A stretch of DNA of 64,000 nucleotides, taken from Ascidia mentula. Lineage: Eukaryota; Chordata; Ascidiacea; Phlebobranchia; Ascidiidae. The stretch covers positions 24,082,266 through 24,146,265 of the forward strand of contig OX387197.1 in NCBI GenBank assembly GCA_947561715.1, written 5' to 3'. The number at the start of each line of letters is the position of its first letter. Positions within the stretch are counted from its first letter, which is position 1. Under the pieces are notes generated by a model. That model saw only the letters and a list, made by a program, of their open reading frames with translations. It did no database searches and was not told the DNA's origin. Positions 387-57,162 of this stretch are shown in pieces. The position numbers were made by a program, and so were the translations under genes.

Positions 387-425
387 AGATTTTCACAATT
401 AATGACGTTACATTTTATTACGCAG

Positions 426-3400
426 GCTTCCATCAACTACTGGTGAGCAAGTGGGACCGCTCACTCAGCGAAGAAATTATACAGAGTTGGCTTTCTATGG
501 TTAATATTGAAGGGTGGATCCCCCGAGAGCAAATCCTGGGTGACGAAGCACGCAGCAAGGTAATCCTGACGTTGACTGCAAGTCGACAAACTTAGTGATT
601 TGTTGCGTTCTAATTAACCCCAAACCATAGGGCCTAGTGGTAACGCATAGTTTAAGTCTTATAAATCGAGGACACCTTGATGATTTATCCCGACCTAGGA
701 TAATAAAAAGTCAAGTTATATATGCCCTTACACTTGTGTTACATTTTCACTTGTATCGTAAATGCCTTTGGAGTTTTTTTCCATTTAACAAATTTTCTCG
801 TTTAGAGCTAATTTTTCCTTTTTTCTCTGCCTCTGATAAAGCGTGCGTTAGCATTTAATAAATCTATACAGAAATCGTCATTAAATAAATACGTCATCAT
901 AATGTCTTCGTCGTCCTTGTAAAGGCACAATTTGTGATTTTTTTTACGCAACCACTTCAGGTACCGAATGAGTTCGTGGTTCAGCGTAACATTAACGCAA
1001 ATCCTCCGACCCTATTTCTCGCCATCGAGTCGATAATCGAATCTTTCGGCACCGAAGCCATCACCCAAAGGGATCGCGAGTTCCTCACAAAGATATACCC
1101 CCGCCTTAAGGTAGGTACCTGACACAGCGAGAGAGCAGTACAATGAATCTAATTAAACTTTTGGTTCCTACAAAAGGGAAACGTCAGAGTTATTGTGTTA
1201 TTCACGGTAAAGCAAATGTTTCGAACAACTACTTTTGATTCCCAAACCTTTAAATTTATGCTCTTGTTTGAATTTTACGCTGCCACGCATTTGCCGTTGA
1301 AATTTAAGTTTAGAGCCAACGATCATTGCCTAGCTACCTTTCTATATGTTGAACCATAAGCATCCATAAACAAATCGTCCATACTTTTGTAAAGAAGACA
1401 GAGAAGAACGTCAGGAATTTGACTGTAGCAATCAGCCTTTGCAAGTTCGTGACCGCCAGATCTGTCTTTGCAAATCAACATAATATTCCTAGACCTCCAA
1501 AAGGAGTTTTTTAAGACAAAAACAGAAGCTACCAATAGGCGAAATTAATATTTCTCGAATAAAGATCTTACTGGCACTGATCGTCTTTTACTCCTTTTGG
1601 AGCTCTAGGAATGTTACTTTTGTAAAGATCATACATTTTCACATAAATATTTTATATGTGAATTTGGATTATTAACTGTTGGTACAAACAGAACAAAATC
1701 AATGTCGTGTTCTGTGCACATAACCTCCGGGTGCTGTTTGTGGAACCAATAATTTTTACCCGTACGCAGGCGTGGTACAACTGGTTCAACACGACGCAAA
1801 CCGGTCGAGAGCCGTTCACCTACAGATGGAGGGGACGGAATGGTGACACGGACGCCGAACTGAACCCCAAAACTCTCACATCGGGACTTGACGATTATCC
1901 ACGAGCCTCGCATCCTTCGGATGAGGAGAGACACGTGGATCTAAGATGTTGGATGGCGTTTGCTTCGGACACGATGGCCAAAATCGCCCGAGTGGTTTAC
2001 TCTGGTGAGTCATAAGTCTTAATGGGTATAGACTTAGTCTATAGGGCGCTTCACGGTGGTTCGTCTCTGTTGTTGAACGGATCGATCGACGTTGACCGAA
2101 ATGTATCACAAAGTAGATGTCTGTGTGCCTCCTAGATATAAAGCTAGTTCAGTGCCACAATCAACAGCTGCACTGATGAGACCTTTAGATCGAGTGTTAG
2201 TATTTATCTCTTGTATTAGTAGCTGCTGCTTTTTGTTGTTTGTTGAATCACTATCATTAATCATTAATTTCGTCTAGGTACTTCAACTAATGCATTGTTG
2301 ACACTGACACTTCTTAATACATGTAATTTGTTTCGTTGTGTCATACTGATCATTCGGTATTTCATTGGTTACTAAGTTTACTTGCATCGAAACAAAATGT
2401 ACATCCATTATTCTCTTTTAACGCTGGTTCGTCCTGTATATGCACACAACAAGCGCACCAATCAAAACACCCTGATATTTTCAGAAAACCCATCGGAAGC
2501 TGAGCAATACGCAGAGACTCACCGTCTGTTATCAGACAACGAGCTCCTCAGAAAGCTGCACTGGTCGGCAGAGATGGGAATATTTGCTGATTTCGGAAAC
2601 CACACAGATCGCGTCACTTTGATGAGGCGAACCTACCAGAATCCCCAACAGGGACAACCCCCTATAACACGTACTGTGCGCGTGGAACGACAAGCTCCAA
2701 AGTTGCGATTCGTCGATTCGTTCGGCTACGTCAGCCTTTTCCCGTTTCTTATGCAGGTTGGAATTGGTTTTCTTTCTTTAATGAACTGTAGATAAAGGAA
2801 CGAAACCCAGAGGTTGATGAAAAACCTTGAATTTGTTGTTAACAACAGAAAGTGAAATTACAATATGCCTGAGGGTAACAGCAACCCAATGTTTAATTGT
2901 GTTGGGCAGTTTTACAATAGCGTGGTTCCACATAATTGTCTTGATTTGAATTAATATGCGCAACTCGCTATTGCATTAATACTCGGGCAAAGGTGATAGA
3001 TGCGCATTTTACGTTGGATTGAGAGAGAAGTTATTCGCCCTATCCTTTTTCACAGCTTCTGGAGCCCGACTCGCAGCAACTCAACCAGTTGCTTCAGGAT
3101 CTGCGAGGTGACGACAATCTTCTTTGGACGCCCTATGGTTTACGATCTCTATCCAAACGCGACCCGCTGTACATGAAGCGGAACACGGAACACGACCCTC
3201 CCTACTGGCGAGGCCAAATTTGGATCAACATCAATTTCTTGGCCGTGCGCGCTCTGAAGCATTATTCCAATGTGGTGGGGCCTTACGCATTAAAGGCTGG
3301 AGAACTGTATCAGGCGCTTAGGAAAAATTTAGTTAAAAATCTGTTCGACCAGTACTCAAAAACCGGTTACTTATGGGAAAATTACAATGACATCAATGGC

Positions 3401-3472
3401 AAGGGTCAGGGTTGTCACCCATTCACAGGGTGGTCGGCGTTGGTGGTTTTGATGATGTCAGAGGAGTATTAA
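426..3472 (+). CDS. MOGS: Mannosyl-oligosaccharide glucosidase (glucosidase I), 3' part
   Basis: GH63 enzyme of the ER that removes the outermost glucose from the N-glycan precursor. Predicted exons: 426-559, 961-1110, 1770-2004, 2485-2756 and 3056-3472. All have GT-AG borders, phases agree, and TAA ends the frame at 3472. About 400 residues are visible, the C-terminal (alpha/alpha)6-barrel part; the 5' exons lie before the window. Family motifs in order are [84 protein letters not shown] and [16 protein letters not shown]. In this family an Asp of GLDDYPR and the Glu near WENY are the expected acid/base pair (from memory). The last ~20 bp of exon 3, and exon 4, are duplicated inverted at 40607-41239. 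Only this copy can be functional. Confidence 0.95.
2165..2192 (+). repeat. Hammerhead-like element, decayed partial copy
   Basis: Contains AGCTGCA, then CTGATGA (2173-2179), then a short GACC/GATC hairpin, but the GAAA that should follow has changed to GAGT. It is read as a relic of the family best seen at 25307-25355. It lies in a MOGS intron. Confidence 0.35.
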
Positions 3473-4667
3473 CAACAGTTTCAATGAATAGGAAAATTCT
3501 GACACACTTGCTGGGTGCCTTTAATTTTGACTGCTCAACGAGTGTTTGGGTGTTCGTTTCTCGATGTGCTTTATATATGGGTTTTTGAGTGTATGCTCAC
3601 ATGCAATGCCGCTAATGGTACCGCTAGCTATCTTATTACGTGGCAAACACTGCCTGGGGATGACGATGGTCTCCCAACGTTCGTTTTCACCTTTTTACAC
3701 AACACATGAAAAATCATGTTGCTCATCTTTTGCGTCAGAAACGTTTGTGCAGAAGGTGGTAGTTAAAAGCGTGCTGTAGAAGCTGTAAAAAGTGCTGTAA
3801 AAAACTCAGATTAAGCAGACGTACTTTCAGTTATCTTTTGTTATTGTGGATACTTTTACTTTAATAATCTTGTTATTGTGCTACTTCCATGACTAGAGGT
3901 TATGTGTCCATGCCAACTTGAACAACTTGATCGTATTTAGCGGACAGAAAGTGAGGTAAATTAACGCAAACGTTTCGCAGATAAGCATAGTAAAATAATT
4001 ACTGAACTAAAATTGCAGTTACCTCGTTTAGAACATGTTACACCAGGACCGGTTGTAGGAAATCCGTTAGAACGATTACAAAAAAATACAGGGCCCGGCA
4101 GACACGTGTACATCACCTAAAAAAGCGCCGAGTTTGATTTGGTGAAACACCACTGTTTGGTGCAATAATGTTCGCCAAAAACAACATGCACAACTTCAAT
4201 CGTTTTCCTTGACCATTACAAATTGCAATATACGTAATTTATTTTAAACAACGTTCAATGATTTGGAAGCTTTATGATCATTGAAGCAAACGTTAGGAGT
4301 TGATCTATCGTGATTTGTCCCAGCTTTATGTTAAAACAATGGCATTTTTTTACTTTTAAAATACAAATGAGCAATTACAGCTCCTGTACATGATAGGTTA
4401 ATTTTCCTGCCCCTAACCGGAAACGCTTTGTCGTAGAATTCATCATGCGCTGTTTAAATTTTTTTGTTGCAGCCAGACATGCATTGTAAATGTGACGAAG
4501 TTGAACCATTGTCTGGGTATTTTTTTGCGTTGCTCGTCGGTGCGTAAACTACAAAAAATCCTATATTTGCACTGACCGAAGTCGGTTTGCTGGTCTGTAT
4601 GTGTTGAACTTCTGGCAGATTGTTTATAGATAGTGACATTATAACACGAGAAAATCAGACCTACAAG
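3473..4667. other. MOGS 3' flank and ABCC4-like copy A upstream region
   Basis: No coding exon recognised. The first part should be the MOGS 3' UTR. The stretch 2757 to about 3965 has no counterpart in the right palindrome arm. From about 3966 on, mirror similarity resumes, matching 39901-40593, and must include the promoter of copy A. I could not pick out a convincing TATA box. Confidence 0.6.
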
Positions 4668-16942
<12,275 letters not shown>

Positions 16943-18040
16943 ATTTGAAATACACTGTTAAAGTGTCGAGGAAAAGCTCATGACAGTGATTGGCTTGCAA
17001 ACGGCTGCAAACTTGACTTGCAAAATTTGCGTTTGTTACACCGTGACTAAATACAATGGAGCTGACCATACAATTTTTGTGATGCTAAGGTCACCGTAAC
17101 AAGGCATACTCTATAGTATAGACATACACTACAACAAAACACGTACTCGTATTGTGATCAACAAACTGCCGAAGCAACATTATGTATTCCGATTAAACGA
17201 TTTCGGAAACCCACTCATTCTGACCCTATAATCAAAAACGATTTCCACCTTTTGCTTACGTTGCTTTTATTCAGACAGTGGAGCTGCTATTTAGCGAAAT
17301 AAATTTGTCTTATATAAGCAATAGAGCCAATAATGTTTTTTTTTATAGTGAGCTGCAGACAGTGCCACTTTTTCTATTTAATAGGTCTAATGACTGCAGC
17401 CATGACTTACATCGATCTTTTTAACTGTCTACTTCTCACTACGTTTGTTTTATGTATAAAAACATTTCAACACGGAAACATATCTTTCCATACAAATGGC
17501 AAGCACGTTTATTAAAAAAGGAGAAATGCACATTTTTTGTCATTGCCGTTTTTCCTAATCTCCTGGCGAGGTTTTGAGTATAATAAACATGCGTGAGCAT
17601 CCAAATGCCGTTTAACCGACTCCAGACAATAATAATTGAAGTTGTAAATTTCCATTGATGTTGAAACGTTTTCGGCGAACCGCAATAAAGTTCAATATAT
17701 TACTGAACTTGCGAAACAAACAATTCCGAACGTTTTTATGTGTTTAATATACTGCTTGCACGGGATAAATAGGTCACGAACCCCATGACTGTGTATCTGA
17801 CGTCACATTTCTCGTATGTTATGTTGTGTTTACGTGGCATCTTTATGCATTAAACTGACAGATTAACTTTGGTTTAGATAGTAGCCTTTTTATCAGGAGT
17901 CAGATACACGGCAGTGTTAATATTTTGTGTAGACGTTTTAAATAACGCCCTACAACTGAAACCGTCGAAAAAGGGTGTTAACTTCCTAACTTGTTTGAAG
18001 CGTTTTGCTCTGTGATATTTGCGGTCAAACCGTATATACA
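16943..18040. other. 3' flank of ABCC4-like A, no gene seen
   Basis: Intergenic, mirror of about 24801-26152. AATAAA at 17298-17303 is a possible polyadenylation signal for copy A. The short element at 17351-17400 is listed separately. No convincing exon. Confidence 0.5.
17351..17400 (-). repeat. Hammerhead-like element, decayed left-arm copy
   Basis: On the minus strand GCTGCA and TGCAGC frame the element, and AGT-GGC-ACT followed by GTC fits stem III and a cleavage triplet. The CTGATGA strand and stem II have decayed. It is the mirror of the better copy at 25307-25355. Confidence 0.45.
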
Positions 18041-18834
18041 TGCAGGGTTAATGTATCGCATAAGCCTTTACTGATGGCCAAACATGTAACAATAAGAAAT
18101 CCTGATATGGTCAAGGCAACAAAACCAAATTTGCAATACCAAATTGCTTTGTGATAAGTTGATAAAACGTGTGCGTGGAACCAACGTTCAGTTTATGTAA
18201 ATAGAAGCACCTTTGTCACAGGCTGAGGGGACCATAACTCCTTTTACCATTGACGTGCCATACGTACCTCCTCCAAAAGACTGCCCTGCTGTACAACCTG
18301 TAGGAAAAACTGCTGTCATTGAGTCTGTGGCAAGGGGCAGGGCAACTAGATTTACCAGAGTCAGTCCAATAGTAATTGTTGGTTGATATCAATCATTAAA
18401 ATCTTTTTTTAATGGGCAAAACGCTGTACTTTCCATATTGTAATTGTGATCCAAGCTAAATCAAATCAAGCTTGAAACTCATGAAATCCTGTAATATTCT
18501 CTGTTGCTTTTCAATGATAAGGTCATGATATGTGCAAAAAGAGCCAAAATCAATATTGTGAGCTGCAAAAGAGCCATAACCATGGAGTTCTCAAGGTAGT
18601 GATTGTCCAAAACCTAAAATCACCTAAAATGGAATTATTGTAGAAAAGTTGCAATTTCATTCTACATAAAATATGATCAATTTGTGTTGTGCTCGTCAAT
18701 CAGGTGTAAACTGTTGGAAAACAATTGATGTTTTTACGAATATATCTCTTCTTGTGCTCTTCTCTAAAAATGTGCGTTAATCAAATTAATTATATAAACG
18801 CCAGCATTCGTGAGTAGCCAAATTGGTTTAGCAG
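18041..18834 (+). pseudogene. Left-arm-only insertion with a MOXD1/DBH-like last exon
   Basis: The right arm runs straight from the mirror of 18040 to the mirror of 18835, so about 794 bp is extra here. Inside, a 'tttgtcacag' acceptor opens a 54-codon frame (18222-18386) beginning AEGTITPFTIDVPYVPPP and ending in TGA. It closely resembles the final exon of the monooxygenase-like gene at 60787-60855 (VTGVITPLTIDEPYVPPP). No other exon of that family was seen nearby, so it is read as an orphan gene fragment. The flanking intron does not match the 60.8 kb locus, which suggests it came from another paralog. Confidence 0.65.
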
Positions 18835-19836
18835 AAACTTGTATTGATGAGGTACATCTATATTGTCTACAATTCAATTCAATGAACTCCATGTCGAGGC
18901 AGTTACTGATGGAGATTCTTAAGCGGGTTGCGATGCGTGATAAATGAACACAAAACTCAACTTTTTAGCAAAAAAATTAACAAAAAAGACAAAAACTATA
19001 TGTCTGGTAGACTTGAAACTGGAATATTCTGGTTTCAATATGGTCTGTTATAGAATATCTTCGTATTAAAAAAAATCTCCAGTAAACAGAAATTTCTGCA
19101 GTCTGTCGTCAGGATAAACGATTTTTTATCGCAAATGCTTCAACATGCAGTTGACCACAATCGTTGAAAGAATATTATTATTTTTTTGTTGGAAGTTACT
19201 GCAGTTTTACCCGAAAGTCTGAGAAAACTTCCTTCGAGTGATGGAAGTTTGCTTTCCTGCCAAGGTTACTACAAACAAATACGCAAAATACTGTATTTAA
19301 ATGCAGCAAGATTAAAAAACACTTTTTCTCTGGTGTTTTCTTATAGTGTCTAAGCCCCGTCGTTGGGCTCACACTAATAATACGCAGAGCTTTGCCAATT
19401 ACTGCCAACGTTCCTTTGTAGCTTGGAGTATTTGTATTTTGTCGGAAATCAACAACCTTACGTGTGAAAACTGAATTTGTTGCAATAATTTTCACAGATG
19501 GTCTTTTTCCTGTGTAGTGTTGACCGTGAACGACACCAGGATTGTATGAGGATTTTTACTTTAAACTCACCTGAATGTGTGAGGAATGTATTGAGTATGA
19601 AACGGGTTAAAAAGTTTGTCGACTGGTTATAATGAAGATGACTGCTATCCATTGAAAATACTGACTCCAAACATGTGCTGGTAATAATCAAATCAAAATC
19701 AAGTTCACAAAACATTTTGGCTTCAATATTTATTAAGGTTTTATCAAAATTGTACCACATTGAATTAATTTTTATAACATGCACTAACTTTGTAACGATC
19801 GCAGAAACAAGGGCAACTAGATTGAGAAAGTTGCCA
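18835..19836. other. Sulfotransferase-like left copy 3' flank
   Basis: Mirror of about 23734-24788. Open frames here have no family resemblance and are partly frame shadows. Probably 3' UTR and intergenic DNA between the converging ABCC4-like A and sulfotransferase genes. Confidence 0.5.
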
Positions 19837-21282
19837 TTACCAAAAAACATAACACAACAAGCCAATGACGATTCCCGTTAGCACAATGATGAATTGAACT
19901 TCTTTTTTGATTTGGTTGAAGATGTACGAGTTGTCCAGAAACTCTTTAACATTCTCCCCGCCATTGTTCCTGTGTGGGAACATTGTATCCGGTATTGGTT
20001 TGTCGAGGAACTTGCAGAGTGGTTCCCATCCTTCCGTCAGTTTAAAGTAAAGGGTTTTGTCCTTGGGAGCCGCCTACAACATGGAACTTTGTGATATCGT
20101 GAAACTTGTAGCATATAAACAATGGTCGAATTTGAATATATTAGCAGCCGGTTCTCTCACTATCAGCATGCTGTGTAGTAAGCGCTACAAGACTTGATGT
20201 GAAACATCGGTCTGCACATACTGAAACAACTGTAAGTTCGGGTAGGCCATTAAATTACAAGAACCGGTTCGCACCGCTGAATCCAACCACAACCACAGCT
20301 GTTTTCGCCAACTACCTTACGTCAATGTTTGCCACAGTGTTTATTTACTCTGTTGACTTTAGGACTCCACATTTCCGAAAAGTACTTTGGTGTTTGGAAA
20401 GTTTTAGTACAAAAACAATAACTTGTGATCTTATGACTCAACGTAAATGTATGAATGTTGGTTGATGTTACGGAAGCAGTTTTTAGCGAATTTGAAAATA
20501 TTGGCCAATTTACAGCGGAGTTAGTACTACATGTTAGAAGCTTTAAACACAAAACAAACAATTAGGTTTCATTTGAATCTAAAAAAGGCGCGAATAGTAC
20601 CGATAAAAAAGTTTGGCAACCGCAGAAGTACTCTATTCTTGTATTTTACAGGAGACGTTGTGATTTTGCGCGTGGGAAAAAGAAACAAACATACCTCCTT
20701 CACTCGAGCGTTGTGTTGCCTGTATGCTTTCTTGGTAGCCATAAGGTTCCGTGGCACTCCAAGCTGAACTGTCACTTCAAACAATTGAAAATTAAATAAA
20801 TCTAAAATGTATTTCTGCGATTATGTTAATTATACAGAAAACAGAAAAGCGTATGATTATACAGTTTATAGGTTCCCAACCTTCGTTCTCCAGTTTAACC
20901 CCTGGTTGCTTTTGAAAACTGAATTGACCCCTATGTATTACCATACTAATTTTAAAAGGTTTTGAAATACATATGCGAACGAATTGTATCGAACTTAAAA
21001 GCACTACTTCGAATTTACCTTGTTGGAAATCGATGATATAGTTGATGATGTGTCACGATAATCTCGAAAGCAAATCAACTACTTATCGGTTGCGTATATT
21101 TAGCATCATCTTAAATATAGGAGCGTATATTTACTTCCGTCCCTAAGAAAGGCTTTTAATTTTCTCCCGGTCGGAGATACGATGACGATGAAGTTTAAAA
21201 CCAAGTCCTGAGTCATGGAAGCCAACTGCTTCTCCCAACTTTTTGCGTATTCCGCCTGACTGCTTCGCTCCATATGAATAAT
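19837..21282 (-). CDS. Sulfotransferase-like protein, 3' half, left copy
   Basis: Predicted exons in transcription order: 21135-21282, 20695-20774 and 19837-20073; GT-AG borders and matching phases, 154 residues plus stop. The protein reads IIHMERSS...EYAKSWEKQL, then YRQHNARVKE, then EGWEPLCKFLDKPIPD and FPHRN, and ends with a hydrophobic span FIIVLTGIVIGLLCYVFW. This pattern fits the Sulfotransfer_4-type P-loop proteins (family recalled from memory), whose C-terminal half carries the GWEPLC...P.P..FP..N block. The N-terminal P-loop exon is not found upstream: the palindrome centre begins there. It is either a 5'-truncated relic or a gene with distant 5' exons. Convergent with ABCC4-like A. 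Confidence 0.72.
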
Positions 21283-21320
21283 CTGTAAAGATATGGAATC
21301 CACAATCACACAAAACATAA

Positions 21321-22217
21321 TTTTTCAATTTTTGGTGACAGGGTTGGTTATAAGAAGCCGCATAAAATTTGACCGGTTGCGACCCTTCCGTGAGTAATGC
21401 CCACTTTATCTGACATTTGCACACATTTTTGATCAATTGGTTTTGAAAGTTTAGACTGACTTGATCAAAATAAACATGGGAAATAGAACCGCAAGACAGA
21501 CAGTTGAAAGCCATATCTAACATTAGTAGCCGAGTGACAATCCCCGCTCAATGACGTTCCAACTTCCTTATTTTGCGGTATTTGTAATCTTTCATCCAAT
21601 CAAGATATGTTTATATTTTAGACCTTGTTAATCCAAACAGCTTGATGTTACGCTCCCACCAGTTACACCATGTAAACATGTGTCAATCAGAACATCATAT
21701 GAACTCATTGCCAAGGGGTGGCTATTATTTACTCGACATATGTTCGTACAAGCGGTACAACTTTGATATTTTAGATTTCCAATAAAAACACCGTTGACCT
21801 TGTAATTGAGTGTACGTCACTCCCTAGTGCAACTTGATGCAATCGTACGGCATACGGTAATTTTGGAGATACTTAAACCAAGGGCGCTTGACTCGAAAAC
21901 CTTCTGGTGGTATGTGTGTCCAATGCATTATATTTTGCATGTTTGAAAATTTTTAGTCTGAGCGCTGTAATGCATTTTAACATTGTCAATATTAAACCGA
22001 CAAATCTCCGTGCAGAGTAGACATGATTAACAGCATACTAGCTTTGACTTCACATTCAAAATGGCTCCATATTATGCCAAAATGCATTACATGATTACAG
22101 TTTAGCGATTTCGTATCCCATAAATTAAAAAAATATGTGCGTTTACTTTATAATTTCTGTTTCCCACCTTTGCATCCGGAAACGCCCAGTGGATTTCCTC
22201 CCACAATGCCGCAGCTG
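21321..22217. other. Palindrome centre (~0.9 kb single-copy spacer)
   Basis: Neither half matches the other. I searched both strands for the missing sulfotransferase P-loop exon and saw none. Open frames exist but lack family features. If the flanking half-genes are transcribed, this spacer would have to hold divergent promoters. Confidence 0.7.
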
Positions 22218-22259
22218 GTATGTACGTTTTATATGATTGTATATTCCATATCTCTACAG

Positions 22260-23733
22260 ATTATTCATATGGAGCGAAGCAGTCCGGAGGAATATGCAAA
22301 AAGTTGGGAGAAGCAGTTGGCTGCCATAGCTCAAGGCTTTATTTTGAAATTTGTCTTCATCGTATCCCCGACCGGAAGAAAATTAAATGCCTTTCTTACA
22401 GACGGATGTAATTATACGGTCCTATATTTAAGATAATGCTAAATATACGCAACTACTTCTTCCTGAGAATCCCAAATATATGAAAAAGTAGTTGATTTGC
22501 TTTCGCGATTATCGTGACACATAAAGGGGAAAATTTGACTTTTTCTTAAGGAAAAATTGTGTGAACAATGTACTCCATGCAGTTTTTGGTTAGTTATTGT
22601 TACATTATTTTTTAGCTTCTCTGTAGTGCTTTTAGGTTCGATACAATTTCGTTCGCTTATGTATTTCAAAACGTTGCAAAATTAGTATGTCAAAACATAG
22701 GGGTCAATTAAGTCTTCAAATGCAGCCAGGGGTTAAATTGGAGAAAGAAGGTTGGGAACCTATGACTTATATAATCATAATTTTCAATTGTTTGAAGTGA
22801 CAGTTCAGCTTGGAGTGCCACGGAACCTTATGGTTACCAAGAAAGCATACAGGCAACACAACGCTCGAGTGAGGGAGGTATGTTTGTTTCTTTTTCCCAC
22901 GCGCAAAATCACAACGTCTCCTGTAAAATACAAGAATAGAGAACTTCTGCGGTTGCTAAACTTTTTTATCGGTACAATTCGCGCCTTTTTTAGATTCGAA
23001 TGAAACCTAATTGTTTGTTTTGTGTTTAAAGCTTCTAACATGTAGTACTAACTCCGCTGTAAATTGGCCAATATTTTCAAATTCGCTAAAATCTGCTTCC
23101 GTAACAACAATCAACATTCATAGATTTGCGAGAAGTCATGAGATCACCTTACTGTTTTTGCACTAAAACTTTCCAAACACCAAAGTACTTTTCGGAAGTG
23201 TGGAGTCCGAAAGTCCACAGAGTAAATAAACACTGTAGCAAACATTGACGTAAGGTAGTTGGCGAGAACAGTTGTGGTTGTGGTTGGATTCAGCGGTGCG
23301 AACCGGGTCTTGTAATTTACTGACCTACCCGAACTTACAGTTGTTTCAGTATGTGTAGACCAATGTTTCACATCGAGTCTTGTAGCGCTTACCACACAGC
23401 ATGGTGATAGTGAGAGAAGCGGCTGCTAACATATTCAAATCCGACCATTGTTTATATGCTACAAGTTTCACGATATTAAAAAGTTTCATGTTGTAGGCGG
23501 CTCCCGAGGACAAAACCTTTTACTTTAAACTGATGGAAGGATGGGAACCACTCTGCAATTTCCTCGACAAACCAATACCGGATACACCGTTCCCACACAG
23601 GAACAAAGGCGGGGAGAATGTTAAAGAGTTTCTGGACAACTCGTACATCTTTAACCAAATCAAAAAAGAAGTTCAATTCATCATTGTGCTAACAGGAATC
23701 GCCATTGGCTTGTTGTGTTATGTTTGTTGGTAA
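22260..23733 (+). CDS. Sulfotransferase-like protein, 3' half, right copy
   Basis: Mirror of the 19837-21282 copy with identical exon lengths: 22260-22407, 22798-22877 and 23497-23733 (148, 80 and 237 nt). The reading stays open and ends at TAA. It has EYAKSWEKQL, YRQHNARVRE, EGWEPLCNFLDKPIPD, FPHRN and the C-terminal hydrophobic anchor ending LLCYVCW. It differs from the left copy at scattered residues (for example CKFL/CNFL, DTMF/DTPF), without stops. The P-loop exon is also absent upstream. Convergent with ABCC4-like B. Retained open frames suggest either recent duplication or continued use. Confidence 0.7.
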
Positions 23734-25306
23734 TGGCAACTTACTTAATCTAGTTGCCCTTGTTTGTGCGATCGTTACAAAGTTAGTGCATGATATAAAA
23801 ATACACCTACTTCGCACAAGAAACAAAAAGCATACAACTTTCTATTCAATGTGGTACAATTTCGATAAAACCTTTATAAATATTGAAGTCAAAACGTTTT
23901 GTGAACTTGATTTCGTTTTGATTATTACCAGCACATGTTTGGAGTCAGTATTTTCAATGGATAGCAGTCAGTTTCATTATAACCAGTCGACAAACTTTTT
24001 AACCCATTTCATACTCAATACATTCCTCACACATTCAAGCGAGTTTAAGGTAAAAATCCTCATACAATCCTGGTGTCGTCCACGGTCAACACTACACAGG
24101 AAAAAGACCATCTGTGAAAATTATTGCAACAAATTCAGTTTTCACACGTAAAGTTGTTGATGTGAGAACGACACAAGCAAGAAACTGAAATCCTGGTTAT
24201 TTCCGACAAAATACAAATACTCCAAGCTACAAAGAAACGATATGTTTTCAGTAATTTGCAACGCTCTGCGTATTATTTGTGTGAGCCCAACGATGGGGCT
24301 TAGACACTATAATAATACAACAAAGAATCTTGCTGCATTTCATTACAGTATTTTGCGTATTTTTTTTCAGTAAACTTGGCAGGAAAGCAAACTTCAATCA
24401 CACGAAGAGGTGTAAATTCCACCAAAAAATAATAATAGTCTTTCCACGCTTGTAGCCAACTGCATGTTGAAACCTTCGCTAAAAAAGTTGTTGATCTTGA
24501 CCACAGACCGCAAAGGTTTGTGTTTAACTAGAGAATTTTGTTTAGAATACGAAGATATTCTGTAACAAACCATGTTGAAACCGGAATTTTCCAGTTTCAA
24601 GTCTACCAGACATATTGTTTTTGACTTTTTGGCATTTTGGTTTGCTTAAAAGGTGAATTTTGTGTGCACTCATCACGGATCGTGACCCGCTTAAGAATCT
24701 CCATTAGTAACTGCTTCAACATGAAGTGCATAAACGTGTATTGAACAGAAATGTAGAAAATACAGAGTTACGTCATCAATACAAGTTTTATATACGGTTT
24801 GAAAAACGATGCGAACAAGTTTAGAAGTTAGCACCCTTTTTCGACGGTTTTAATTATGGCAGTTCGCGACCTTTTATCCCGTGCAAGCAGCATATTGAAC
24901 ACATAAAAACGTTCGGAATTGTTTGCTTCGCAAGTTCAGTTAATGACATTGAACTTTATTCCAGTTCGTCGGAAACCTTTGAACATCCGTGGTAATTTAT
25001 AACTTTAATTATTATTGTCTGGAGTCGGTTTAAACCTTTAAACCATCCAACAACCCGTGCAATGGACTCTACGTCACCTAAGTCAAAGTGTTACAACGGC
25101 ATTTGGATGCTCACGCATGCTTAATTTACACAAAAAGCTTGCCAGAAGATTAGGCACAAGGACAATAAAAAAAAATGTGCATTTCTTCTTTTTTAATAAA
25201 CGTGCTTGCCATTTGTATGGAAAGATATGTTTCCGTGTTAAAATGGTTTTATCCATAAAACAAACATAGTGAGCTGCAGACAGCTGACAAGATCGATGTA
25301 AGCCAT

Positions 25307-25355
25307 AGCTGCACTGATGATACCTATTAGGTAGAAACAGTGGTCATGTCTGCAG
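25307..25355 (+). ncRNA. Type I hammerhead ribozyme-like motif, best copy
   Basis: Read 5'->3': stem I strand CTGCA (25309-25313), CTGATGA (25314-25320), stem II TACC/GGTA (25321-25324 with 25330-25333) around loop TATTA, GAAA (25334-25337), short stem III where A25337, C25338 and A25339 pair with T25349, G25348 and T25347, the triplet GTC (25348-25350), then TGCAG (25351-25355) pairing back with CTGCA. This is the hammerhead core in the type I order. The very short stem III is also known in metazoan retroelement hammerheads. Related decayed copies lie at 17351, 36089, 45093 and 53509. Activity is untested. Confidence 0.55.
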
Positions 25356-25394
25356 ATCATTATAAAAGAAACATTGTTGGCTCTATTGCTTATA

Positions 25395-25736
25395 TAAGAC
25401 AAATTTTGAATAAAAAAGCCAAAGCTAAGGTGCTGTTAACCATTTTGAGTAAACGTTTCGAACCTATACTTGGTTCATCATCAGTACTACTGCAGCAGGT
25501 TGCAGAAAAGCGTCGAGTTAATAGAGGACTGAAAGGCAGAAGGGAAACAGCAGCAACAACAACGAGCAACAAGCCGGAGGCGTGTAGCGTGACAGCAACG
25601 TCGATAGCACAGAGTGACGTCATCATTTGCAAAGAGTCAAGCTGCAGTGCAGACCTAGGTGTTGAAAAGGTATAGAGGTTTAGAGCTGTCATCAATGTTC
25701 AGTGTTGGTTTATGGTGCTGGATGTAAGACAAATTT
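25395..25736 (-). mobile_element. Right-arm-only insertion with 12 bp target duplication
   Basis: The 12-mer 'taagacaaattt' stands at 25395-25406 and again at 25725-25736, bracketing 318 bp. The left arm has it once (about 17300-17311, reverse complement), so this is a filled site and its empty site. The insert begins with the 'aagccaaagctaa' family block also seen near 54480, 60240 and 63110. On the minus strand it has CTGATGA, one base, a 5 bp GAACC/GGTTC hairpin and GAAAC. A long target duplication suits a retroposon rather than a cut-and-paste transposon. Confidence 0.7.
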
Positions 25737-26152
25737 ATTTCGCTGAAAAGCAGCTCCACTGTCTGTAAAAAAGCAACGTATGCAAAAGATGGAAATCGGT
25801 TTCATTATAGGGTCAGAATGAGTGGGTTTCCGAAATCGTTCATTCGGAATGCATGCTTGTTTCCATTATAATTGTACGGCTGGATAATGTGGCTTCGGCA
25901 GTTTGTTGATCACAATACGAGTGCGTGTTTTGTTGGCGTTATATAAATAGTTTATACCTATAGAGTATGCCTTCTTATGGTAGCACCACAAAAATTTTAT
26001 GGTCACATTTTATTCGAATATTCAACAGTAATTCTTGAGCTCCATTGTATTTAGTCATGGTGTAACTAACGCAAATTTTGCAAGCCAAGTTTGCAGCCGT
26101 TTGCAATCCAAGCACTGCTATGAGATTTTTCTTGGCACTTTAACAGTGTATT

Positions 26153-39900
<13,748 letters not shown>

Positions 39901-40606
39901 ATTGTACGTCTGATTTTCTCGTGTTATAATGTCACTATCTAAAAACAATCTGCCAGCACGCCACAACCAATTAAAACATGCAGACCTGCAGACTAACTTC
40001 GGTCAGTGCAAATTAAGGATTTTGTGGAGTTTACGCACCGACGAGCAACGCAAAAACATACCCAGACAATGGTTCAGCTTCGTCACATTTGCATTGCATG
40101 CCTGGCTGCAACAAAAAATTTAAACAGCGTGTGATGAATTCTACTTTCGAAAATTAACCTATCATGTTCAGGAGCTGTAGTTTCTCATTTGTATTTTGAA
40201 AGTAAAAAAAATGCCATTGTTTAAACATAAAGCTGGGACAAATCACGATAGATCAACTCCAAACGCATGGTTCAATGATCACAAAGCTTCCAAATCATTG
40301 AACGTTGTTTAAAGTAAATTACGTATATTGCAAATTGTAATGGTCAAAGAAAACGATTGAAGTTCGATACACGCTCCGGCTTAAAACATGTTGTTTTTGG
40401 CGAACATTATTTCATCAAACAGCAGTGTTTGACCAAATCGAGCTCTGCGCTTTTCCAGGTGAAGTACACGTGTCTACTGGGCCCTGTATTTTTTTGTAAA
40501 CGGATTTCCTACAACCGGCACTTGTGTAACAAGTTCTAAACGAGGTGACGGCAATTTTAGTTCACTACAATTATTTTACTATCTAATACCTATCTGCAAA
40601 ACGTTT
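39901..40606. other. Upstream region of ABCC4-like B
   Basis: Mirror of about 3966-4667. It must contain the 5' UTR and promoter of copy B. No TATA box or known operator-like motif stood out. Confidence 0.5.
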
Positions 40607-41239
40607 TTAACCTGCATGGGAAACGGAAAAAGGTTGACGTAGCAAAAGGAATCGCCGAATCGCAAGTCGTTCCACGCGCACAGTACGTGTTATAGGGGGT
40701 TGTCCCTGTTGGGGATTCTGGTAGGTTCGCCTCATCAACGTGACGCGATCTGTGTGGTTTCCGAAATCAGCAAAGATTCCCATCTCTGCCGACCAGTGCA
40801 GCTTTCTGAGGAGTTCGTTGTCTGATAGGAGACGATGAGTCTCTGCGTATTGCTCAGCTTCCGATGGGTTTTCTGAAAATATCAGGGTATTGGCTGGTGC
40901 GCTTGTTGTGTGCATATACAAGACGAACCAGCGTCAAAAGAGAATAATGCACGTACATTTTGTATAATGCCAGGTACACTTTATGTGCAAGTAAATATAG
41001 TTACCTATAAAATACCGCATGATCAGATAAGACGAAACGAAACAACATGCTTAAGAAACGACGATTAAGATATGTTAGTGTCCACAATGCATGGCTGAAA
41101 TTAATGCTAGCGAATTAACAAACAACGAAAAGCAGCAACTCCTAAAACAAGAGACAGTTGCTGACACTTTATACTGTTCTATGGACTAAGTCTATTGCCA
41201 TTATCATCCTTTCTCACCAGAGTAAACAACCTGGGCGAT
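40607..41239 (-). pseudogene. MOGS: MOGS fragment (exon 4 plus last ~22 bp of exon 3)
   Basis: The minus strand matches MOGS exon 4 (40607-40872, with 'tttcag' acceptor), the intron before it and the tail of exon 3 (41218-41239). Relative to 2485-2756 it lacks 11 bp after the codons for VRVER, which shifts the frame, so [11 protein letters not shown] is lost. The sequence after exon 4 jumps directly to the mirror of about 3966, so the last exon is missing. It lies between the divergent ABCC4-like B and C genes. Non-functional as glucosidase I. Confidence 0.9.

Positions 41240-42376: not shown

Positions 42377-57162
<14,786 letters not shown>

Follow-up and report, generated by a model that had tools for sequence, protein, structure and literature searches.

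In the region analysed, an ABCC4-like transporter gene of Ascidia mentula probably became a convergent gene pair by an inverted duplication in place: the segment from a MOGS-like gene to gene A was copied and inverted, which produced the pair A and B ahead of a third paralogue, gene C. The mirror pair is probably a real, repeated kind of duplication rather than an assembly mistake. All positions refer to the window, the whole stretch of 64,000 nucleotides that was analysed, unless a contig is named; C1 is the contig that carries the window, at 24082266-24146265. The features are collected in Table 1.

Table 1. Features of the palindrome, its genes and its relatives elsewhere in the genome
Feature	Position	Strand	Remarks
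Arm A	1983..21319	+	original copy; self-BLAST and base-level alignment
Arm B	22223..41239	-	inverted copy; self-BLAST and base-level alignment
Spacer	21320..22222		903 bp, between the innermost arm pair
Gene A	4668..16942	+	ABCC4/MRP4-like, 1271 aa, 29 predicted coding exons
Gene B	26153..39900	-	ABCC4/MRP4-like, 1273 aa, 29 predicted coding exons
Gene C	42377..57162	+	third ABCC4-like paralogue, 1295 aa, 29 exons
Exon 2 of gene C	42743..42853	+	likely conversion tract with B; agrees with exon 2 of B at 110/111 bases
MOGS-like gene, 3' exons	422..3463	+	PF03200, GH63; one further match upstream of the window
PF03200 matches in the window	422-562, 958-1113, 1749-2000, 2484-2759, 3041-3463	+
Segment with the last MOGS-like exon	2760..3986	+	arm A only
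Orphan MOGS-like exon in arm B	40609..40981	-	11-bp deletion
Third copy of the inner flank of arm A, then the second half of the spacer	C1:24246731-24248506	-
Second ABCC4-like palindrome	C67:10320128-10346378	D +, E -	chromosome 4; genes D and E around an 887-bp spacer
Third convergent pair, F/G	C67:15516250-15523900		chromosome 4; within an 11-copy array

The initial annotation had described an imperfect palindrome of about 39 kb with a spacer of about 0.9 kb, and our alignments bore this out. It had also proposed a self-alignment along the arms. Self-BLAST gave a single inverted chain between approximately 2.4-21.3 kb and 22.2-41.0 kb, about 19 kb per arm, whose blocks of at least 150 bp each showed 78-96% identity. 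At base level, the outer limits of homology were 1983 and 41239, and the innermost arm pair was 21089-21319 against 22223-22453. The arms are thus adjacent, inverted and homologous over introns and flanks. Their overall identity was 92.0% for 15,248 confident pairs (78.9% of arm A), with 95.5% for coding and 90.8% for noncoding pairs. As the annotation had noted, indels accompany the substitutions: a global alignment between positions 3988 and 21319 of arm A, in which some stretches are misaligned, contained 26 indels of at least 30 bp, arm B being longer in 20 and arm A in 6. The noncoding divergence was clumped, with a variance-to-mean ratio of 4.1 vs 0.91 in shuffles, and windows over 19378-20781, close to the centre of the palindrome, exhibited 93-97.5% identity. 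Scans of the window against Rfam at gathering scores and for tRNAs gave no matches. A 274-bp intron segment found in arm B only was considered as a mobile element and rejected, with one genome copy in a search that skips very common words.

Genes A and B lie tail to tail, and genes B and C head to head. The start codons of B and C are 2.48 kb apart in opposite directions, and therefore the two genes may share regulation. Gene C and the MOGS-like gene at the left edge were absent from the initial annotation. For the exon models, we used open frames common to A, B and C, GT-AG borders and phase, with hand-adjusted seeds. None of the three models, with 29 exons each, contains an internal stop. 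Two open ABCC4-like genes in opposite orientation had been claimed, and this part stood, but the models have 29 coding exons instead of the 30 first counted. All splice sites of the three genes are predictions from DNA, weak at the exon 15/16 junction and at the acceptors of exons 6, 10 and 21. As a control, a spliced aligner with protein C on the A region returned 32 exons, 26 of which were identical to one of the model's 29. Among the 550 solved proteins matched by draft protein A, ABCC4 chains were the best 8 of the 60 listed, and within the matches listed the best ABCC4 chain scored 1105 bits vs 763 for the next family. Protein A carries two PF00664 and two PF00005 stretches in Pfam, and its model starts 23 residues ahead of the WWLN motif, with no TMD0, as in ABCC4/MRP4. 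Walker A, signature, Walker B and H-loop, also expected of ABCC4/MRP4, are present in both NBDs of A, B and C.

Proteins A and B are identical at 1206 of 1271 residues. The two genes differ with dS 0.126, dN 0.024 and dN/dS 0.19, dN being larger in TMD1 (0.037) than in NBD2 (0.014), and the dS to gene C is 0.45 from A and 0.43 from B. The upstream sequence common to A and B is about 90% identical over 3988-4667. ABCC4 is an exporter of organic anions, with cyclic nucleotides, urate or eicosanoids as substrates. By analogy, the products of A and B would be membrane exporters of organic anions. Both copies would be expressed and would export ABCC4-type substrates, and a second copy with similar upstream sequence should raise the dose, alongside slow divergence. 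Two repeats touch gene C. An intron holds a 23-bp tandem array of 85 copies (50575-52519), and coding exons 27-29 fall within a 16.6-kb direct repeat of 99.5% identity between C1:24138563-24155139 (window coordinates 56298-72874) and window coordinates 91536-108108, which is either a recent duplication or a residual assembly duplication.

The MOGS-like neighbour, a single-copy glucosidase gene, distinguishes the two arms. Across the 195.8-Mb genome (79 contigs), PF03200 matched at seven places, six of them in a row in the MOGS-like gene next to A (window coordinates about -328 to 3463), the seventh in arm B. The homology of the palindrome stops at 1983, within the MOGS-like exon matched at 1749-2000. 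The segment with the last MOGS-like exon has no counterpart in arm B between 40582 and 40609, and beyond the broken exon arm B meets gene C, not the rest of MOGS. Because arm B has one broken MOGS-like exon and then gene C, arm A is, judging by this layout, the original neighbourhood and arm B the inverted copy. Compared with its parent, the broken exon showed 7 synonymous and 0 nonsynonymous differences over 75 codons, while a B lineage evolving neutrally should have gained about 13 nonsynonymous changes (P of 0 about 3e-6). An old dead duplicate would look different. Three histories would fit: a functional MOGS allele converted the exon not long ago, the B copy lost its function only lately, or the two arms go back to two homologues. 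The bases beyond the 11-bp deletion, on the other hand, look unconstrained.

Two more convergent pairs of the same family lie on chromosome 4 (contig C67). In the second palindrome, genes D and E are predicted to be probably intact, from a spliced aligner that can mask a stop by inserting a small intron; the D-E comparison paired 25 exons and left out exons 1, 11, 15 and 29. For the 22 exons whose length is the same across genes A to E, dS was 0.121 between A and B and 0.140 between D and E, and it was saturated between the pairs. In their 3' half, the F and G proteins were 75% identical, and the pair matches mainly in exons (10 kb, C67:15513901-15523900). In this half, the three convergent pairs form a series of 97, 96 and 75% protein identity. 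A FastTree analysis of the 3' half gave the groups (A,B), C, (D,E) and (F,G), with support of 1.0 for the D-E pair, 1.0 for the F-G pair and 0.94 for the branch parting A and B from the rest. The simplest reading of the tree would be that the three pairs came from separate events, but conversion within pairs could yield an identical tree.

The family is also large. Its exon 12 was found at 57-97% identity in at least 17 places in the genome: at least 3 on C1 and, on C67, at least 2 at 10.33 Mb, 11 at 15.44-15.59 Mb and 1 at 18.18 Mb. At least 7 more relatives, at 42-45%, lie at 13.5 Mb of C67. In the array at 15.5 Mb, nine of the 11 copies are on the plus strand and two on the minus strand, so inverted copies are a minority there. 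Among the matches listed in searches of open papers on ABCC4 or ABC transporters in ascidians or tunicates, no title dealt with this locus or with an ABCC4 expansion in Ascidia. Fragments of the family occur on the minus strand in a 6.35-kb tandem repeat of 99.75% identity (C1:24212843-24226068, window coordinates 130578-143803), which contains ABCC4-like exons 21, 22 and 24-26. Another ABC transporter, at C70:14955686-14959069, is one open frame of 1381 codons without introns; compared with the approximately 29 exons of the ABCC4-like genes, it is a possible retrogene or contaminant. Read with table 13 (the ascidian mitochondrial code), the COX1 gene of contig C79 stays open and has 18 AGA/AGG codons, many of which stand at glycines conserved in COX1, which makes the host a tunicate with this code.

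Silent divergence between the paralogues depends on the exon. Between A and C, synonymous differences amounted to 28/195 sites in the NBD2 exons 23-28 vs 90/199 sites in the TMD1 exons 4-9 (Fisher p 2e-11). Between A and B, they were even, with 18.5/195 in NBD2 vs 23/199 in TMD1 (p 0.5, computed on 18 and 23). This contrast suggests gene conversion with C. Such an exchange is preferred because a lower mutation rate or silent constraint in NBD2 would lower the A-B values as well. The tract at exon 2 between B and C had p 2e-7 against their average, as a single-exon value uncorrected for 29 exons, and A and B differ at 7/111 bases of that exon. The clumped noncoding divergence of the arms may likewise reflect conversion, but constraint or allelic history could also produce it.

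The initial annotation had named an assembly join of two diverged haplotypes as the alternative, in which A and B would be alleles of one locus, misjoined in opposite orientation. We consider such a join very unlikely, even though several observations speak for it. Ascidians can be highly polymorphic, and kaAscMent1.1 represents one haplotype and is incompletely phased, according to the genome note (PMC11109543). The near-equal dS of the A-B and D-E pairs looks like two samples of one heterozygosity, and the copies of the MOGS-like exon differ synonymously alone. Against the join, the outer flanks are not allelic and there is no gap where the arms meet. The MOGS-like fragment of arm B is frameshifted, its last exon is gone, and the homology stops in mid-exon with gene C next. 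N bases are absent from 224 kb around the window and from 30 kb of the second palindrome. Two false joins would be required at each of two loci, and the third convergent pair, at 75% protein identity, is clearly old. The assembly method argues in the same direction: the genome note describes PacBio HiFi reads, hifiasm, purge_dups, YaHS and manual curation, with a contig N50 of 11.9 Mb, QV 64.9 and 1.2% duplicated BUSCO genes (PMC11109543). The broken fragment, the absence of N and the two other convergent pairs thus disfavour the join.

Two further readings accept the palindrome as real. In one, a young palindrome was made from two diverged homologues, and its 12% silent divergence would be allelic and would leave the event undated. 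The broken MOGS-like exon, with synonymous changes only, the near-equal dS in two unrelated palindromes and the patchy divergence of the arms all agree with this reading. Because of the first two observations, an allelic origin of the arm divergence is kept among the possible explanations. We nevertheless regard a young palindrome as unlikely: the arms differ by 26 indels of at least 30 bp in the global alignment, no constraint is apparent beyond the 11-bp deletion, the available portion of the genome note does not mention heterozygosity, and a recent conversion by a MOGS allele accounts for the exon equally well. In the other reading, an old convergent pair was copied to several places, with arm-to-arm conversion keeping each pair alike. 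The members of all three pairs are indeed closest to each other, and arm identity is patchy. Yet the spacers of 903 and 887 bp do not match, for which reason a single spacer element behind both palindromes was also rejected, and the fragment of A's own neighbour gene in arm B points to copying in place; this reading has hardly any probability left.

Our preferred reading remains an inverted copy made in place. The segment copied would extend from within the MOGS-like gene through gene A and its 3' flank. Inverted and set beside itself, the copy would have left the 0.9-kb unique loop and turned a single gene into the convergent pair A and B, ahead of gene C. A template switch during replication, of the fold-back type, would be the maker of the inverted copy. 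A relative of the palindrome centre occurs on C1, and its similarity stops at 22222-22223, where arm B starts. Over the innermost 275 bp, it was 91% identical to arm B vs 82% to arm A. No fold-back was present at this relative (24.247 Mb) within the 3.4 kb examined, and a 500-bp probe taken from B's 3' end matched four places, all on C1. After the duplication, gene conversion would move sequence between patches of the two arms and among the NBD2 exons of A, B and C, while the membrane domains would diverge. As a tentative and rather doubtful generalization, ABCC4-like genes may multiply in this genome by repeated convergent inverted duplication, with the pairs and neighbours like C trading ATPase exons by conversion while their substrate-facing membrane exons diverge. 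If true, mirror pairs would be a route to new exporters with a shared engine and a variable pore.

The three pairs, graded in divergence within a single gene family of a non-model chordate, lend themselves to studying how inverted copies arise off sex chromosomes and how they are modified by conversion. In addition, this filter feeder has a large ABCC4-like expansion. A lesson for assembly is that a truncated neighbour gene can weaken a suspected haplotype join.

Ascidians are hermaphroditic. The initial annotation had pointed to sex chromosomes, and mammalian sex-chromosome palindromes do resemble this locus in their gene-bearing inverted arms, short spacer and some signs of conversion. However, their arms are more than 99% identical. 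A sex-chromosome palindrome was rejected here on the 92.0% arm identity and on the genome note (PMC11109543), whose available portion lists no sex chromosome. Like ABCC4/MRP4 organic-anion exporters, the genes have ABCC4 as their best solved relatives and a doubled pair of Pfam domains; a difference is that their exon 12 recurs in this genome, many copies being in arrays. The IRK channel genes, as described in PMC1999503, are likewise neighbouring paralogues in opposite orientation, for which a palindromic (anti-tandem) duplication has been proposed. That pair is ancient and was inferred from gene positions, whereas the arms here align over introns and flanks. Fold-back (tandem inverted) segmental duplications share with this locus the adjacent inverted copies, the short unique spacer and an outer end within a neighbour gene, with a truncated passenger exon. 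Unlike them, three convergent pairs are present here in one gene family, probably from separate events. The type of rearrangement is already known, and its recurrence within one family is what is seen here.
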